The position numbers and the translations under genes are program-made. A DNA stretch of 12,698 nucleotides from contig JALOPK010000064.1 in the NCBI GenBank assembly GCA_025453925.1, positions 1 to 12,698 of the forward strand, read 5' to 3'. Under the pieces are notes generated by a model. That model saw only the letters and a program-made list of their open reading frames with translations. It did not search any database and was not told the DNA's origin. Shown here piece after piece: positions 1 through 12,698 of this stretch (positions are counted from its first letter, which is position 1; every line of letters begins with the position of its first letter). The DNA is from Candidatus Eiseniibacteriota bacterium. GTDB taxonomy: Bacteria > JAFGKV01.

Positions 1-925
1 TGCGGACGGGCCGGGCGTCTCTCCCGTGGGTAGGCGGTTCCAGTTGGAGCGTCGAGTGGACGATGCCGAACTGCTCGCGGAGCATAGTCTGGGCGTGATT
101 GAGACAGGTCTGCCAGTGCACTGTCTCGCTGCAATCGGGTTCAAGCCGCAGGTGGGCGCTGAGCGCAGGGATGCCGGATGTGATGGTCCAGATATGCAGG
201 TCATACACCTCGACGACGTGATCCATGCCGACCAGGGCCTGCAGCACGGCGTCGTAGTCGATATCAAGGGGAGTCGCCTGAAGCAGGATCTGGGTGCTCT
301 CCTTCAAGAGCCCGATGCCGCTCCAGAGGATCAGCGCGCCGATGGTCACGCTGGCAACGGCATCGATGGGAACCCAACCGGTGAGCCAGATCACTCCACC
401 CGCGATGATGGTGCCGACTGAGCCCAACGCATCCGCCACCATATGGGCAAAGGCTCCCCTGACATTGATGCTCTCCTTTCGACTGCGGAAGAGCACCGCG
501 GCTGACCAGATGTTCGCGACAAGACCGCCAACGGCGACGGCCAGCATCAACGGCCCCTCAATCTGCGGTCGTGAGGCCAGCCGTTGATAGGCCCTCACGG
601 CGATGAAGCCCACGATGACCACAAGGGTGGCGCCGTTGAGGAATGCTCCCAGCACCTCGGCGCGCAGAAGGCCGAAGGTACGCCTGGGATTGGGAGGCAG
701 GAGGGCAAGTCGCGCCGCCACCAGCGCCACGGCCAGGGCCGCGACGTCGGTCAGCATGTGGCCCGCGTCGGCGAGCAATGCCAGGCTATTGGAGAGGAGG
801 CCGCCGGCGGCTTCCACGACCAGGTAGGCGCTGTTGATGGCCAGCGCCATGCGGAGACGCCGGATGGAGACATGGCGGGTGTCGTGGTGGTGGCCGGGGC
901 AGTCGTGGCAGTGATCGGTGTGCAT
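1..925 (-). CDS. czcD: Cation diffusion facilitator (CDF) metal efflux transporter, CzcD/ZitB type, 3' end outside window
   Basis: This protein would export divalent metal (Zn2+, probably also Co2+ or Cd2+) from the cytoplasm in exchange for protons. I translated it from ATG 925; 308 codons are in the window with no stop, which is close to the usual family length, so only the tail is missing. The N-terminus is His/Cys-rich (MHTDHCHDCPGHHH), a likely metal-binding extension. Hydrophobic helices begin near residue 27. The two CDF signatures are HMLTD (H56, D60) in helix 2 and HMVAD (H161, D165) in helix 5; this two-His/two-Asp set is typical of Zn-type CDFs. The cytoplasmic domain contains LHIWTITSG (about 243-251), then SAHL and HSTLQLE, as in CzcD. 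An AAAGGA motif lies about 5 bases before the ATG. It is divergent from the YHS gene, which suggests a shared metal-handling role. The family call is firm; the exact metal is not. Confidence 0.93.
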   Translation of the reverse strand, partial: MHTDHCHDCPGHHHDTRHVSIRRLRMALAINSAYLVVEAAGGLLSNSLALLADAGHMLTDVAALAVALVAARLALLPPNPRRTFGLLRAEVLGAFLNGATLVVIVGFIAVRAYQRLASRPQIEGPLMLAVAVGGLVANIWSAAVLFRSRKESINVRGAFAHMVADALGSVGTIIAGGVIWLTGWVPIDAVASVTIGALILWSGIGLLKESTQILLQATPLDIDYDAVLQALVGMDHVVEVYDLHIWTITSGIPALSAHLRLEPDCSETVHWQTCLNHAQTMLREQFGIVHSTLQLEPPTHGRDARPVR

Positions 926-7752: not shown

Positions 7753-7782
7753 GTGATGTTGTCCCCTCGCCGGGAGTCCTCC

Positions 7783-9174
7783 GTGGCGCCAGTCACATCT
7801 GCTCGTCGCTGGTCAATGACCGGTGGAATGGTGTTCGGCCGATACCGGGGCGATGAACCCACGGAATCGCCTGCCATCCCCGCCCCGTCCCAGGTGGTGC
7901 TTCCCGTGGGGATCCCTTCGCCCGATCTCCTGGTCAGGGAGGGCGACTCCGTCTGTGCCGGCCAACCTCTGGTCCCTCCCTCCCGGATCCTGCCCCGGCA
8001 CTTTCACCTTGCCAGCGTCTCCGGCACCGTCGCGGCGTTCATTCCTCACGGCAAGGGTATGCGCGCGCCAGTGTCAGTGGTGCTGAACAGGTCGCCCGGT
8101 GATGAGCATTGCGGCGAGCGCTTTGCGATGCCGTCCGATCCCGAGGCGGCCCGGCAGGTTCTGGTGCGCTCCGGAGCCGTGCACGGGTGCCCTCCTGATG
8201 CCGCGCGCTGGCTGCTCCAGCCCCGGGCCGCGCCCGTCACCGCGCTGCTTGTGGCGTGCTTCGCCTCAGGCCCTCTGGAGCCGCGCCGTCTGCGTCTGGC
8301 GGCCTGCGAGTCGTCGCATCTGCGTGAGGGGCTGGCCTTGTGGCGGAGTGCCGTCGGAGGGTCACCCGTTGTCCTCATGGTGGCGGAGGATGAAGCCGCG
8401 GCGTGGCGCGCAATGGGCGCCGGGCCGGGCGAAACCACCGTGCATCCATGCCCCCGGCGCTATCCCGCCGAGCATCCGCAGATGCTGGCCAGCCGGCATC
8501 TACGGCACGATCTCCCCGGGGGATCGCTTCCGCTCGACCGAGGCCTGCTGGTCATCGATCTCTTGGCGGTGTGTGCCGCCGGACAGGTGGCGGCGACGGG
8601 CGAGGCCTTGCGCGAGACCACCGTTGATCTCGTCGGCCAGGGCGCCGTGCGGCCGGTCACCCTGCGGGCGCGAATCGGCACGAGGGCGGCGGATCTGTTC
8701 AAGAGATTCGTCGTCGATCCTCCCCCATTGTTCGTGGGTGGCGGCCTGCTGGCGGGGGAGCGCCTCGGGCCGGAATCACCCGTGCTGCCCCACCAAGGCA
8801 CCATAGTCGCCCTGAGGGCGCCGACGCGGCGCTTCTTGAGCTTCATGTCTCCGGCGGTCCGCCGCCCTTCGTGGACCCGGGCGGCGCTCTCCTCGTTTCT
8901 TCCTCCACGGAGCCTGGAGGCCCGGGCGGAGGTGGGCGGTGAACTCCGGCCCTGCATCTCGTGCGGCGCCTGCGAAGAGGTGTGCCCGCGGGGCATTTCT
9001 CCCTCCCACCTCGCCAGACTCGCCGAGGGTGGATTCGTGGAGGAAATGATCCAGTACGGGATTGACCGCTGCATCGAGTGCGGGCTGTGTTCCTATGTCT
9101 GCCCCTCCAAGATCGAGCTCATGGCCGCCCTTCGGCGCGGGATCGAGGCCGTCGCCCGGGAGCAGGTCGCATGA
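7783..9174 (+). CDS. nqrA/rnfC: RnfC/NqrA-family subunit with two [4Fe-4S] motifs, first gene of the Nqr-like operon
   Basis: This 463-residue protein occupies the NqrA position. The N-terminal barrel-sandwich part reads LVREGDSVCAGQPL then HLASVSGTV, as in RnfC and NqrA. The C-terminal part has two ferredoxin-type motifs, C391-x2-C394-x2-C397-x3-CP (401) and C430-x2-C433-x2-C436-x3-CP (440). These are RnfC hallmarks and are absent from typical NqrA. In the middle, the RnfC NADH/FMN loop (GLGGAGFPT) is replaced by GAVHGCPPDA (131-140), and the NGAECEPY region reads CFASGPLEP. The late GGGLLAGE segment corresponds to RnfC GGPMMG. It may therefore pass electrons through Fe-S clusters without oxidising NADH; this is inferred. 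GTG 7783 follows GGGAG by 6 bases. GTG 7753 and ATG 7756 are in-frame alternatives with weaker sites. It overlaps nqrB by ATGA. Confidence 0.85.
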   Translation: MAPVTSARRWSMTGGMVFGRYRGDEPTESPAIPAPSQVVLPVGIPSPDLLVREGDSVCAGQPLVPPSRILPRHFHLASVSGTVAAFIPHGKGMRAPVSVVLNRSPGDEHCGERFAMPSDPEAARQVLVRSGAVHGCPPDAARWLLQPRAAPVTALLVACFASGPLEPRRLRLAACESSHLREGLALWRSAVGGSPVVLMVAEDEAAAWRAMGAGPGETTVHPCPRRYPAEHPQMLASRHLRHDLPGGSLPLDRGLLVIDLLAVCAAGQVAATGEALRETTVDLVGQGAVRPVTLRARIGTRAADLFKRFVVDPPPLFVGGGLLAGERLGPESPVLPHQGTIVALRAPTRRFLSFMSPAVRRPSWTRAALSSFLPPRSLEARAEVGGELRPCISCGACEEVCPRGISPSHLARLAEGGFVEEMIQYGIDRCIECGLCSYVCPSKIELMAALRRGIEAVAREQVA

Positions 9175-10256
9175 AACCCCTCCGCACGCTGATGGATGCG
9201 ATGTTGGCTCGATGGGGCAAAGGCCCGATCGCCCCCGTCATCGAGGCGCTGGACTTCTTTCTGTTCGGCCCCTCGACGGTGCCGGCAGGACCGCCCCATG
9301 TCCGCGATGTCATTGACGTGAAGCGTTTCATGTGGTGGGCGATCATGGGGCTGGTGCCGCCGTTCTTGGGAGCGGTCTACTTCTTCGGACCCCGCGTGCT
9401 CCTCATGGTGCTCGTGTCCTATGTCGCCGGGGCGGTGGTGGAAGTGGCCTTCTCGATCCTGCGCAGGGAGCCCATCGCCGAAGGCTTGCTCGTCACGGGT
9501 CTGATCTTTCCCTTGACCCTTCCCGTGGAGACCCCGCTCTGGATGGTCGCGATGGGGGCCATGTTCGGGGTGTTCTTCGGCAAGGAGGTTTTCGGAGGCA
9601 CCGGCCACAACATCATGAATCCCGCTCTGGTAGGCCGGGCGTTCCTCTTCCTGAGCTTTCCACGCGCCATGTCGTCAGGATGGGTGATCCCCGGCGAGGG
9701 AGCGCTGGGTGGCGACGCCACCACGGGTGCGACACCGCTCCTGACTGCCAAGCTGGCTCATGCCGCGGGAGGCTCGGCGTCCGACGCCGTCCGTCAGGCC
9801 ATGGGCAGTGACTGGTGTGCGCTGTTGTGGACCAAGGGACCTGACGCGATCGGCGCGACCTCCGCCGTACTCTGCCTTCTTGGCGGCATCATCGTGGTGG
9901 TCACGCGCGTGGCGAACTGGCGCATTCCCGCGGCCGTTGTGGGCACCGTGATGGTGGTGGGCGGGCTCCTGCACGCAGCTGCGCCTCAGGTTTTCATGCC
10001 GGTGCCATTCCAACTCATCGCCGGGGGGCTTCTCTACGGCGCCTTCTTCATGGCCACCGATCCCGTCTCCGGGCCGGTGTACAACGATGCGCGATGGGCC
10101 TACGGCGTCGGGATCGGGCTCCTGGTGCTGGTCATCAGAGCCCTCTCCGGCTTCCCCGAGGGCGTGATGTTCGCGATTCTCCTCATGAACCTGGTCGCGC
10201 CGCTGCTGGACCAGGGTAGCCGCTCGATGCGTGCCCGTCGGTGGCGCCGTGGATAG
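9171..10256 (+). CDS. nqrB: Na+-translocating NADH:quinone oxidoreductase subunit B
   Basis: NqrB is the large membrane subunit of the sodium pump and carries covalent FMN. This 361-residue copy is shorter than the roughly 410 residues of proteobacterial NqrB. Family landmarks are HVRDVIDVKR (about 43-52), EGLLVTGLIFPLTLP, FGKEVFGGTGHNIMNPALVGRAF and, near the C-terminus, ATDPVSGPVYN. The flavinylation motif is DATTGAT, fitting D-x-x-[ST]-GAT, with T188 as the FMN acceptor; an ApbE enzyme must attach the FMN. The start overlaps the stop of the upstream gene (ATGA), indicating translational coupling. HVRD-IDxKR and the GKEVFGGTG string favour NqrB over RnfD. Many hydrophobic helices are visible. 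Confidence 0.93.
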   Translation: MKPLRTLMDAMLARWGKGPIAPVIEALDFFLFGPSTVPAGPPHVRDVIDVKRFMWWAIMGLVPPFLGAVYFFGPRVLLMVLVSYVAGAVVEVAFSILRREPIAEGLLVTGLIFPLTLPVETPLWMVAMGAMFGVFFGKEVFGGTGHNIMNPALVGRAFLFLSFPRAMSSGWVIPGEGALGGDATTGATPLLTAKLAHAAGGSASDAVRQAMGSDWCALLWTKGPDAIGATSAVLCLLGGIIVVVTRVANWRIPAAVVGTVMVVGGLLHAAAPQVFMPVPFQLIAGGLLYGAFFMATDPVSGPVYNDARWAYGVGIGLLVLVIRALSGFPEGVMFAILLMNLVAPLLDQGSRSMRARRWRRG

Positions 10257-10923
10257 CCCGTTGCGCACCGTGCTGATGACCACGCTGGTCGCGGTGGTGT
10301 GCGCGGTCCTGCTGGTCGGGGTGCGCGGGGTCGTGAGCGCTTCGGTCGATCGCAACCTGCTCATCGATGAACAGCGCGCGGTGCTTGACGCGCTGGACGT
10401 CCGGGAGAGCGGCGTGGCGCTGGCCTGGGGTTCGGCAGCCGCCGTCGAAGACGCATTCGTTCGATTCGTGAGAAAGGATCGAGGCGCCGCCGGCATCGAG
10501 CAGGAGTTCGATGTCTTCACGTACATGGTCGGAAGCGAAACGAGGGGCGTCGCCATCCGGGTGTTCGGCCGGGGTCTATGGGGTGAGATCCGGGGATTCG
10601 TGGCCCTCGATCCCCGGCCGCCGGGAGCGGAGCGATGGCCGGTCCGCGGGCTGGTCATCTACCGCGATGAGGAAACCCCGGGCCTGGGAAAGCGCATGCG
10701 GGACGATGACTTCAAAGCCCGGTTCCGCACCGCCGCGGGGAAACTGGTCCCGGGGCTCCGCATCCTCAAGGGTGAGGGAAGCGCATCGGGACCGCTGGAG
10801 GTCGACGGCATCACTGCGGCGACCATCACCACCCAGGGTGTGCAGGGTCTGATCGATCGAGCCGTCGCCTGGTACGCCGGCGAGGCAGGGGTCGCTTCCG
10901 GGGAGAGTGCGCATGGCGGCTAG
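10249..10923 (+). CDS. nqrC: Na+-translocating NADH:quinone oxidoreductase subunit C (FMN-binding)
   Basis: NqrC is anchored by one N-terminal helix and carries a second covalent FMN on its periplasmic domain. Here the anchor is about residues 9-27 and the rest is soluble. GRGLWGEIRGFVAL and EETPGLGKRM match the NqrC core (GxGLW...ETPGLG). The flavinylation site reads DGITAAT with T192 as the expected acceptor; the normal Gly before AT is Ala, so attachment may be altered. GTG 10249 (224 residues, overlapping the nqrB stop by 8 bp) has a GGTGG just before it. GTG 10231 and ATG 10275 are alternative starts. It overlaps nqrD by 11 bp. Confidence 0.9.
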   Translation: MDSPLRTVLMTTLVAVVCAVLLVGVRGVVSASVDRNLLIDEQRAVLDALDVRESGVALAWGSAAAVEDAFVRFVRKDRGAAGIEQEFDVFTYMVGSETRGVAIRVFGRGLWGEIRGFVALDPRPPGAERWPVRGLVIYRDEETPGLGKRMRDDDFKARFRTAAGKLVPGLRILKGEGSASGPLEVDGITAATITTQGVQGLIDRAVAWYAGEAGVASGESAHGG

Positions 10924-11551
10924 AGGCCTGGTTCGCAAGGGCGCGCTGACCGACAACCCCATCGTGTATCAGATCCTCGGGGTCTGCTCGGCCCTGGCGG
11001 TGACCAACCGCTTCGAGAACGCCCTTCTCATGGGAGTCTCGCTCACCTTCGTGGTCGCGGGAAGCAGCGCGTTGGTCTCTGCCCTCCGGCACATCATCCC
11101 CAAGCGCACGCGGATGATCCTCGAAATGCTCATCATCGCGACGTTCGTGATCATCGTCGATCTGGCTCTGAAGGCGTATGCATGGGAAGCGGCCAAGGTC
11201 ATGGGGGCGTACGTGGCGCTGATCATCACCAATTGCATCGTCATGGGGCGCGCCGAGGCGTTTGCCATCGCCAATCCGGTGCGCGCCTCCTTCCTCGACG
11301 CCGTCGGCAACGGGCTCGGCTACACGTGGGTCCTTCTGGCGATCGCACTGGTTCGTGAGGTGCTGGGAACGGGCAAGATCTTGTTCACGACCCTTGCCCA
11401 CGCCGAAGTCCCGGTGGTTCCCGCGGCGTTGATCAGGGCCATTGACGGGCAGTTTCCCCTGCTCCTGATCCTGCCGCCCGGGGCGTTTCTTGTGTTGGGC
11501 GTGCTCATCTGGATCGTCAAAGCCCTGCAGGGGCCGGGCCGGGAGGTCTGA
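10913..11551 (+). CDS. nqrD: Na+-translocating NADH:quinone oxidoreductase subunit D
   Basis: NqrD is a small six-helix membrane subunit that, with NqrE, holds an Fe-S cluster inside the membrane. This 212-residue protein has NPIVYQILGVCSALAVT (C25) and LIITNCIVMGRAEAFA (C108), the two conserved cysteine regions, then GNGLGY and a REVLG-x-GK motif. CSALAVT and the ITNC-x-VMGRAEAFA string separate NqrD from RnfE, which usually has CPLLAVT and VVNC. ATG 10913 follows GGAGA by 6 bases and lies inside the end of nqrC. Its length is typical. Confidence 0.94.
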   Translation: MAARGLVRKGALTDNPIVYQILGVCSALAVTNRFENALLMGVSLTFVVAGSSALVSALRHIIPKRTRMILEMLIIATFVIIVDLALKAYAWEAAKVMGAYVALIITNCIVMGRAEAFAIANPVRASFLDAVGNGLGYTWVLLAIALVREVLGTGKILFTTLAHAEVPVVPAALIRAIDGQFPLLLILPPGAFLVLGVLIWIVKALQGPGREV

Positions 11552-11552
11552 G

Positions 11553-12164
11553 ATGGCGCCACAGATCCATTGGCTCTTGGTGTTGTTCGCCGCGGTCTTC
11601 ACGAACAACATCCTCCTCTCCTACTTCCTGGGGATGTGCTCGTTCCTGGCCGTGTCGCGCACCCTGAGCACGGCCTTCGGCCTCGGCCTCGCCGTGACGT
11701 TCGTCACCACGTTCACGTCCATCCTCAACTACGGCATCTACTACGGGCTTCTGGATCCGGCGACATCGCTGATCGGAATCGATCTCCGATTCCTCCAGTT
11801 CATCGTGTTCATCGTGGTCATCGCGGGGTTCGTGCAGCTTGTCGAGATGGTCATCGACAAATACTCCCCGGCCTTGTATCAGGCGTTGGGCATCTTCCTG
11901 CCGCTCATCACCGTCAACTGCGCCATTCTCGGCGTGTCGGTGTTCATGGTGATCCGCCGGTACACGTTCATGCAGGCCGCGGGCTACGGCCTGGGCAGCG
12001 GCCTCGGATGGTTCCTCGCCATCGTGCTCATCGCCGGCATCCGGCAACGGCTTCGATTCGCGAACACCCCTTGGCCCCTGAAAGGGGTCGGCATCACCAT
12101 GATCATGACCGGGCTCATGGCCATGGCCTTCATGGGCCTGGCCGGAGTCGCCAGTCTGGGTTGA
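11553..12164 (+). CDS. nqrE: Na+-translocating NADH:quinone oxidoreductase subunit E
   Basis: NqrE is the pseudo-symmetric partner of NqrD. This 203-residue polytopic protein has NNILLSYFLGMCSFLAVS (C29), LVEMVIDKYSPALYQALGIF and LPLITVNCAILG (C123), with the closing GVGITMIMTGLMAMAFMGLAG. The cysteines C29 and C123 pair with those of NqrD to bind the intramembrane cluster. MCSFLAVS and TVNC favour NqrE; RnfA normally has CPFLGVS and TTNC, although NNILLS here is slightly Rnf-like. A strong GGGAGG lies just before the ATG, within 2 bp of the nqrD stop. Confidence 0.94.
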   Translation: MAPQIHWLLVLFAAVFTNNILLSYFLGMCSFLAVSRTLSTAFGLGLAVTFVTTFTSILNYGIYYGLLDPATSLIGIDLRFLQFIVFIVVIAGFVQLVEMVIDKYSPALYQALGIFLPLITVNCAILGVSVFMVIRRYTFMQAAGYGLGSGLGWFLAIVLIAGIRQRLRFANTPWPLKGVGITMIMTGLMAMAFMGLAGVASLG

Positions 12165-12211
12165 GGGCAGGGCTCGGGATGCAAGGTCCAGGGTGCAGGA
12201 TTGTGGGTTCA
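12163..12211 (+). repeat. Degenerate heptamer tandem array, consensus GGGTGCA (7 units)
   Basis: Read in steps of seven from 12163 the units are GAGGGCA, GGGCTCG, GGATGCA, AGGTCCA, GGGTGCA, GGATTGT and GGGTTCA. The phase holds without insertion, and most units open with a G-rich triplet. It starts at the nqrE stop codon. Such decayed 7-bp arrays are typical of slipped-strand-derived intergenic repeats; a functional role is unknown. Confidence 0.5.
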
Positions 12212-12225
12212 CTGTGGCCGCTGAA

Positions 12226-12238
12226 GGCGCTGAGCGCC
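12226..12238. repeat. Short hairpin GGCGC-TGA-GCGCC
   Basis: Five-bp perfect arms flank a 3-nt loop. A near-identical 13-mer, differing only at the first loop base, recurs at 12316-12328 within a longer stem. This may be an attenuator or a protected mRNA end after nqrE, but there is no T tract. Confidence 0.4.
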
Positions 12239-12312
12239 GTCAGATATCTCAGGGTTGAGAGTACGAATCCCTCGCCCCAACCTGTCGCCACGCCGCTCTG
12301 CAGCGTGCCACA

Positions 12313-12331
12313 CCCGGCGCAGAGCGCCGGG
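12313..12331. terminator. Perfect 8-bp GC hairpin between nqrE and nqrF (possible partial terminator or processing site)
   Basis: Arms CCCGGCGC (12313-12320) and GCGCCGGG (12324-12331) are exactly complementary around AGA. CTGCAGCG occurs on both sides as a direct repeat (12298-12305 and 12333-12340). There is no T tract, so intrinsic termination is doubtful. It could stabilise the nqrABCDE mRNA or lower read-through into nqrF. Confidence 0.4.
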
Positions 12332-12406
12332 GCTGCAGCGGAAGACGCCGCATCGCCAACGAATGGACCACGTAGTCTCAAGCAAGGGTCCCGGGGTTCA
12401 ACCCCC

Positions 12407-12462
12407 GCGGTCCGCAGTCCTCAGTTCCGGTCTGTAGTCTGCGCACTGCCGACTGCCGACTC
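12407..12462. repeat. Degenerate heptamer tandem array, eight 7-bp units related to CNGTCTG/CCGACTG
   Basis: In steps of seven the units are GCGGTCC, GCAGTCC, TCAGTTC, CGGTCTG, TAGTCTG, CGCACTG, CCGACTG and CCGACTC. The phase is unbroken for 56 bp and neighbouring units resemble each other most, as expected for a drifting tandem repeat. It lies in the middle of the nqrE-nqrF gap and is non-coding. Confidence 0.6.
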
Positions 12463-12469
12463 TTCCCCG

Positions 12470-12493
12470 TTCATCCATTCGTCCATCCGTCCA
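12470..12493. repeat. Octamer tandem repeat TYCRTCCA x3
   Basis: Three 8-bp units, TTCATCCA, TTCGTCCA and TCCGTCCA, follow each other without gaps, just 7 bp after the heptamer array. The change of unit length from 7 to 8 marks a separate repeat. It is non-coding. Confidence 0.55.
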
Positions 12494-12514
12494 TCTTCTC
12501 CGTTCGACGTTCCA

Positions 12515-12541
12515 TGGCCTCCCTTTCTCAAATGGAGGCCA
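12515..12541. repeat. Perfect 8-bp inverted repeat upstream of nqrF
   Basis: Arms TGGCCTCC (12515-12522) and GGAGGCCA (12534-12541) flank an 11-nt loop. The right arm runs into AGGAGGGA (12541-12548), a strong Shine-Dalgarno-like sequence with no normal start codon at a usable distance. The hairpin could be an operator, an attenuator or a leader structure controlling nqrF; I cannot tell which. Confidence 0.4.
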
Positions 12542-12614
12542 GGAGGGATTCCGAGCTGCTCGCCCGCTCGGCCCTCCCGTCTGTCCCCGGACCTCGCCTC
12601 ATGAGCAGTTGTAG

Positions 12615-12698
12615 ATGACGGAATTCGCTGCGGCGGTTGCGGTGCTGGCCGGCGTCTCGGGCGTGCTGGCGTGGCTCCTGGTGCTGGCCGAAGGGAAG
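12615..12698 (+). CDS. nqrF: N-terminus of NqrF, NADH-oxidising subunit (3' end outside window)
   Basis: Only 28 residues are inside the window. They form one hydrophobic helix (AAAVAVLAGVSGVLAWLLVL) ending in AEGK, which fits the single N-terminal anchor of NqrF before its 2Fe-2S domain. Gene order (A-B-C-D-E-F) makes NqrF the expected product. RnfB also begins with one helix and occupies the equivalent place in Rnf operons, so it remains possible, especially given the RnfC-like first subunit. A TAG lies in frame immediately before ATG 12615, so the start cannot be further upstream. The ribosome-binding site is weak. Unlike its tightly packed partners, this gene is 450 bp from nqrE. Confidence 0.65.
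   Translation, partial: MTEFAAAVAVLAGVSGVLAWLLVLAEGK

Follow-up and report, generated by a model that had tools for sequence, protein, structure and literature searches.

An Nqr-type operon of Candidatus Eiseniibacteriota encodes an NqrA that retains the two [4Fe-4S] cluster motifs of RnfC

RESULTS

An Nqr operon headed by an iron-sulfur NqrA

The window examined here is the whole stretch of DNA that was analyzed (12,698 bases), and it makes up all of contig C440 of a Candidatus Eiseniibacteriota draft genome (G000, 82% complete). It carries an operon of the Na+-NQR type whose A subunit is an NqrA with the two cluster-binding motifs of RnfC, and operons that share this combination form a grade below the classical Nqr operons. 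We regard the identity and evolutionary position proposed here for the window operon as highly probable. Genes A to E follow one another tightly on the plus strand, and a truncated nqrF comes about 450 bases later (Table 1). That interval (12165-12614) holds no convincing gene; nqrE and nqrF abut in G002, which belongs to the same family as the source genome.

Table 1. Positions of the operon genes and of selected features of the A subunit in the window
Feature	Position	Strand	Description
nqrA of the Fe-S type	7756..9174	+	472 aa; fold shared by NqrA and RnfC; NqrA-type loop for membrane anchoring; FMN/NADH loop degenerate; ferredoxin domain (2x[4Fe-4S]) at the C terminus
Membrane-anchor insertion segment of A	8734..8952	+	NqrA type; present in NqrA, not in RnfC
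First CxxCxxCxxxCP motif	8953..8988	+	C400-P411; predicted [4Fe-4S] site
Second CxxCxxCxxxCP motif	9070..9105	+	C439-P450; predicted [4Fe-4S] site
nqrB	9171..10256	+	361 aa; HVRD motif, GKEVFGGTGHN, TGAT covalent-FMN site
nqrC	10231..10923	+	FMN-binding domain, AATIT flavinylation motif
nqrD	10907..11551	+	Two intramembrane [2Fe-2S] cysteines (GVCSALAVT, ITNCIVMG)
nqrE	11553..12164	+	Two partner cysteines (GMCSFLAVS, VNCAILG)
nqrF, 5' end	12615..12698	+	First 28 codons, with a TM helix; truncated at the end of the contig

The A subunit combines NqrA anatomy with RnfC cluster motifs

A first-pass annotation of the window had reported two complete CxxCxxCxxxCP motifs in the A protein, and we confirmed both. 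That annotation took GTG 7783 as the start of the gene. The open reading frame spans 7753-9174 on the plus strand, and ATG 7756 is the likely start because the G002 homologue begins at the aligned position; the motif cysteines C391-C401 and C430-C440, numbered from 7783, are thus C400-C410 and C439-C449 when numbered from 7756. The A protein shares 48% identity with this homologue, in which all eight ligand cysteines are kept. The window protein has 15 cysteines in total, and one of its seven nonligand cysteines is conserved in G002. Between the two genes, codon positions 1, 2, and 3 differ at 42, 31, and 62%, respectively, and within the Fe-S domain they differ at 24, 20, and 54%, a pattern which indicates that the A gene is under purifying selection. 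The AlphaFold2 model of the A protein (pLDDT, 87.5; pTM, 0.89) is confident in the region of the Fe-S motifs. Given the retained ligands, the large excess of changes at codon position 3 over position 2, and the confidence of the model in this region, the motifs are not a product of chance.

The model matched both RnfC of A. woodii (9ERI; Z, 34.0; 2.8 A over 414 residues) and NqrA of V. cholerae (7XK3; Z, 32.8; 3.2 A over 426 residues). The distance from the GGxxxG motif to the first cysteine is 73 residues in the A protein, compared with 73 to 79 in classical NqrA and 37 to 41 in RnfC. In V. cholerae, residues 330 to 379 of NqrA form a membrane anchor that is wound around the N terminus of NqrB (PMC9325719). 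The window protein has lost two sequence features of RnfC, the Gly-rich FMN/NADH loop (GMGGAGFPTHVK) and the NGAECEP motif; its columns for GMGGAGFPTH and NGAECEP read GAVHGCPPDAARWLL and VACFASGPL. Both features are degraded in every Fe-S NqrA protein. Based on the anchor insertion, the lost FMN/NADH loop, and the structure matches, the A subunit is an NqrA by anatomy that has the clusters of RnfC. The first-pass reading of the gene as an RnfC at the head of an Nqr operon fits neither this anatomy nor the placement of the protein on the NqrA side of its tree. The transplantation of an RnfC into an Nqr operon is ruled out by the anchor insertion together with the A-subunit tree built without the Fe-S domain.

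A search of the protein against HMMs of both families had been proposed along with the first-pass annotation. The protein passed neither curated cutoff, scoring 73.9 bits against the NqrA model (TIGR01936; cutoff, 321) and 113.2 bits against the RnfC model (TIGR01945; cutoff, 246).

The downstream subunits are of the Nqr type

In profile searches, each of the subunits B to E scored higher with its Nqr model than with its Rnf counterpart (nqrB, 285.5 versus rnfD, 248.9 bits; nqrC, 80.1 versus rnfG, 39.8 bits; nqrD, 210.9 versus rnfE, 181.6 bits; nqrE, 243.2 versus rnfA, 203.6 bits), yet the Nqr scores lie mostly under the Nqr curated cutoffs. These scores, together with the tree described below, uphold the first-pass assignment of B to E to Nqr. 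Subunit B also exceeds the curated cutoff for rnfD (248.9 versus 207) and subunit D that for RsxE (192.6 versus 184), which may lead such operons to be annotated as Rnf. With the A subunit under both of its cutoffs and B and D over the Rnf ones, automatic annotation can easily miss this class.

The N-terminal region of the window NqrB extends about 42 aa ahead of HVRD, compared with roughly 6 to 17 aa in most RnfD proteins; in V. cholerae, this region forms the quinone pocket and binds quinone-site inhibitors (PMC9325719). G140 is kept in the window NqrB, G141 is replaced by Ala, and the protein has FGGTGxN, not FGGLGxN. All four cysteines of the D/E cluster and the flavinylation motif of NqrC are present.

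The rest of nqrF was found on another contig of the same genome (C343), on the minus strand, starting mid-gene at the end of that contig. This is the sole full-strength nqrF match in the genome (457.9 bits; cutoff, 295). In G002, all six genes are contiguous (L042), and the first residues of the G002 NqrF align with the truncated window frame at 12615; by comparison with G002, about 25 nqrF codons fall in the assembly gap between C440 and C343. The electron input module is that of NqrF, with a TM helix, a [2Fe-2S] ferredoxin domain, and FAD/NADH domains, and a gene for an RnfB polyferredoxin was found neither in the window nor in the G002 operon. The downstream F/B gene, whose domains the first-pass annotation had proposed to read, is nqrF and not rnfB. 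The source genome also has a separate rnfC-D-G locus with the standard RnfC FMN/NADH loop (contig C367, L044).

No gene in the window near the operon hints at an electron acceptor, its neighbors being glycosyltransferases only. Elsewhere in the window, a small protein with three repeated YHS/TRASH-like metal-binding units (1134-1904) adjoins a zinc-type cation efflux gene (2-925, minus strand) that is cut by the contig end.

Fe-S NqrA is widespread

Using patterns that cover its Cys region, we scanned public genomes for the A subunit and recovered at least 80 loci, at least 44 of which have an Fe-S NqrA. Together with the window and five proteins from whole-genome searches, at least 50 Fe-S NqrA proteins were classified, and all eight ligand cysteines are present in 50 of the 50. 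It is important to note that for the 44 scan loci this proves little, because the patterns were themselves based on cysteines. All eight cysteines are also present in L040, L042, L175, L176, and L178, which were found without a Cys pattern. Most Fe-S NqrA genes stand in operons with B to E and nqrF, and the others are cut by contig ends or belong to variant modules. Judging by record titles among the matches listed, they span about ten phyla. Sources are Omnitrophota, Armatimonadota, Bipolaricaulota, Fraserbacteria, Spirochaetales, Tissierellales, Dethiobacter, Planctomycetota, Verrucomicrobia, Eisenbacteria, Desulfobacterota, and unnamed lineages. A single hybrid or an artifact is thus ruled out by 49 further Fe-S NqrA proteins. 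Of the Rnf/Nqr hybrid suggested at first, the pairing of an Fe-S A subunit with Nqr-type B to E stands, but its singularity does not.

When 290 genomes were searched with the nqrA model, 25 had an NqrA over the cutoff and at least 6 had the Fe-S type, under the cutoff. Among the 20 of those 25 over-cutoff proteins that were examined, none has both Fe-S motifs. The first-pass annotation had allowed that many NqrA proteins might carry both motifs; this proved true of uncultured and anaerobic lineages but not of these 20 proteins. The Fe-S nqr operon is absent from G001, a genome of the same genus as the source.

Variant modules were also observed. In three Fe-S NqrA operons (L052:6954-7980, L077:7948-10897, and L176:5103-8668), NqrF is reduced to its [2Fe-2S] ferredoxin part, which is fused to NuoE in L077 and L176 and followed by a separate NuoE gene in L052; a NuoF-type FMN subunit comes next in L077 and L176. 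These modules possibly represent a different NADH input, of the bifurcating type. In Fraserbacteria and relatives (L049:14789-16734, L051:11703-14064, and L063), Fe-S NqrA and NqrB occur without NqrF, in whose place are 2Fe-2S and PF04060 "FeS" domain proteins; L051 and L063 are also without recognizable C, D, and E.

Fe-S operons form a grade below classical Nqr

In a tree of subunits B, D, and E from 75 loci, the split between Rnf and Nqr has a support of 100 (here, tree support is SH-aLRT only), and the window falls on the Nqr side. The first-pass annotation had stated that a placement of B to E inside Rnf would make this a plain Rnf operon, and this is not where they are found. Within Nqr, the Fe-S operons form a paraphyletic grade, and the operons with a cofactor-free NqrA form one late branch that adjoins the Fe-S operons of Desulfobacterota and has an Fe-S locus (L071) at its base. 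The placement of all Fe-S operons in one clade was rejected (AU test, p = 0.0008). In a tree rooted on the D/E duplication, the classical operons are nested in both halves, and the E subunits bear out the placement with Nqr; resolution is lacking at the deepest D forks and at several deep forks of the B+D+E tree. The A-subunit tree built without the Fe-S domain agrees with the B+D+E tree and places the window protein on the NqrA side. For the Fe-S domain on its own, the columns were too few to resolve a tree.

Traces of the clusters and of the loop were found as well. Of the 20 classical NqrA proteins (L155-L174), 14 have a cysteine at ligand position 7 and 15 have one at position 8; going by their positions, these are fossil ligands. 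Graded remnants of the FMN/NADH loop are seen in L040 and L046. On the sequence evidence, Fe-S NqrA looks ancestral for Nqr, and both trees and the NqrA-type anchor loop suggest that NqrF was in place prior to the loss of the clusters. Read most simply, the data point to an Nqr ancestor with NqrF and an Fe-S NqrA, to the decay of the FMN/NADH loop as the first change, and to a single loss of the clusters. The early suggestion of an evolutionary intermediate between Rnf and Nqr agrees with the grade that the Fe-S NqrA operons form.

DISCUSSION

A proposed NADH-driven pump with two exits

In NQR, electrons pass from NqrF through the D/E cluster and NqrC to the NqrB flavins and quinone (PMC10643135; PMC9325719), and in Rnf the two RnfC clusters bridge the RnfD riboflavin to FMN and NAD+ (PMC12174285). 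The best explanation of the window operon as a whole, which we favor with moderate confidence, is an NADH-driven pump of the Na+-NQR type, composed of A to F, with an NqrA that has kept both [4Fe-4S] clusters of RnfC. Electrons from NADH would enter through the FAD and [2Fe-2S] cluster of NqrF, reach the [2Fe-2S] cluster in NqrD/E, and continue through the FMN of NqrC to the FMN and riboflavin of NqrB, with Na+ pumped as in NQR. From the riboflavin, they could leave to quinone at the N-terminal pocket of NqrB or through the two NqrA clusters to a soluble acceptor other than NAD+. Since the clusters are kept and the FMN/NADH site is lost, we infer that the riboflavin could be oxidized via NqrA by such an acceptor. 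It is likely that the clusters are assembled and lie within electron-transfer reach of the NqrB riboflavin. We see a little short of an even chance that a soluble non-NAD acceptor takes up the electrons, either alongside quinone or in its place, and the extra electron exit raised in the first-pass annotation thus stands as a possibility. More tentatively still, Fe-S NqrA operons would be a widespread, unrecognized class of NADH-driven Na+ pumps with a second exit, able to run without quinone, and cofactor-free NQR would be a late derivative with that exit closed.

The quinone exit is supported by the N-terminal region of NqrB and by menA or polyprenyl synthase genes that lie behind nqrF in L046, L047, L050, and L073, on deep branches. 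Neither menD over the cutoff nor mqnA/D was found in G002 (98% complete), although a menA-type gene is present there, or in the Phycisphaerales chromosome of L058; this speaks, as suggestive evidence only, against quinone as the only exit. Of the 24 genomes with Fe-S NqrA, most of which are drafts, 11 have a strong match to mqnA/D or menD. This mixed quinone status weighs against the favored explanation; due to the mixed result and the incompleteness of the drafts, we dropped the census as a clean discriminator.

Alternative roles for the clusters

The clusters might be structural only, holding the C-terminal domain on NqrB, with quinone as the sole exit as in V. cholerae NQR. Cofactor-free NqrA keeps its fold without clusters, the NqrB region that forms the V. 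cholerae quinone pocket is present (PMC9325719), and menA and prenyl synthase genes stand beside several deep Fe-S nqr operons, all of which would suit a structural role. We nonetheless consider it unlikely, because the eight ligands are kept across many phyla, also in operons found without the Cys pattern, and because some Fe-S NqrA genomes show no menD or mqn genes.

The clusters might instead serve as an electron entry, by which ferredoxin or another low-potential donor would reduce the NqrB riboflavin and quinone through NqrA, beside the NADH input at NqrF. Rnf is reversible, its RnfC clusters bridge the RnfD riboflavin to the RnfC flavin (PMC12174285), and the loss of the FMN/NADH loop leaves the clusters open to a protein partner. 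However, electrons that enter at the riboflavin would skip the D/E step, the one credited with Na+ pumping (PMC11889175), so that energy would be wasted, and the source genome has a separate rnf locus. This role appears quite improbable to us.

We give very little credence to the idea of a true chimera, in which recombination with an RnfC gene would have restored the Fe-S domain. The genome does encode an RnfC (L003/L044), and the Fe-S domain by itself is too short for a resolved tree. However, two data sets place Fe-S NqrA as a grade below the classical proteins, a single Fe-S clade is rejected by the AU test, about 33 extra NqrA-type residues directly precede the cysteines, and the domain would have had to be regained many times separately. 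A plain Rnf operon, or an artifact of assembly or annotation, which the B and D scores over the rnfD (248.9 versus 207) and RsxE (192.6 versus 184) cutoffs might suggest, is hardly credible and is refuted by nqrF (on another contig, and contiguous in G002), by an operon without rnfB, by the placement of B, D, and E on the Nqr side with a support of 100, and by the recurrence of the arrangement in independent genomes.

Order of evolution and significance

The published model has RnfB lost first, followed by the loss of the FMN, NAD, and Fe-S sites of RnfC, and NqrF recruited last (PMC4014512). The Fe-S NqrA operons look like the missing steps from Rnf to Nqr but in the reverse order, since they have NqrF and have lost the FMN/NADH loop but still keep both clusters. 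All solved NQR structures have a cofactor-free NqrA whose function is unexplained (PMC12174285), and with the proposed NADH-driven pump NqrA would be explained as the relict of an electron exit. In the open-access literature searched, we found no description of an Fe-S NqrA; reviews and structural papers describe NqrA as cofactor-free. Fe-S NqrA also occurs in cultured organisms, such as Desulfoluna butyratoxydans (L102), from which an Nqr with the extra clusters could be purified.

Comparison with known systems

The window operon resembles V. cholerae Na+-NQR (7XK3, 8A1U) in its gene set, its A-to-F order, its NqrF input module, the N-terminal region and covalent-FMN site of NqrB, the cluster cysteines of NqrD/E, and the anchor loop of NqrA. 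It differs in that the V. cholerae NqrA is cofactor-free, whereas the window NqrA has two intact [4Fe-4S] sites. With Rnf, as represented by RnfC of A. woodii (9ERI), C. tetanomorphum (7ZC6), and A. vinelandii (8AHX), it shares the fold of the A subunit and the two cluster sites; unlike Rnf, it has no RnfB, has lost the FMN/NADH loop, and has the NqrA-type anchor insertion and the NqrF input module.

Operons reported as NqrBCDEF without NqrA in Pseudothermotoga (PMC4148951) and Clostridium ultunense (PMC5924567) are likewise Nqr operons of anaerobes. The Tissierellales operon L050 has an Fe-S NqrA at its head. By analogy, the "absent" A subunit of Pseudothermotoga and C. ultunense may be an unrecognized Fe-S NqrA, which offers a possible reading of these reports.

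The Rnf of Desulfobacula toluolica Tol2 also has an RnfC with Fe-S clusters and without an NADH domain (PMC5109826). It was described with a large RnfB, not NqrF (PMC5109826), and, unlike the window, the loci of Tol2-type appearance (L056, L084, L087, L099, and L104) fall on the Rnf side of the B+D+E tree. In Desulfobacterota Rnf operons that resemble the Tol2 type (L056, L059, L064, L084, L087, L099, L104, and similar loci), RnfC is without the Gly-rich FMN/NADH loop and the clusters are kept.
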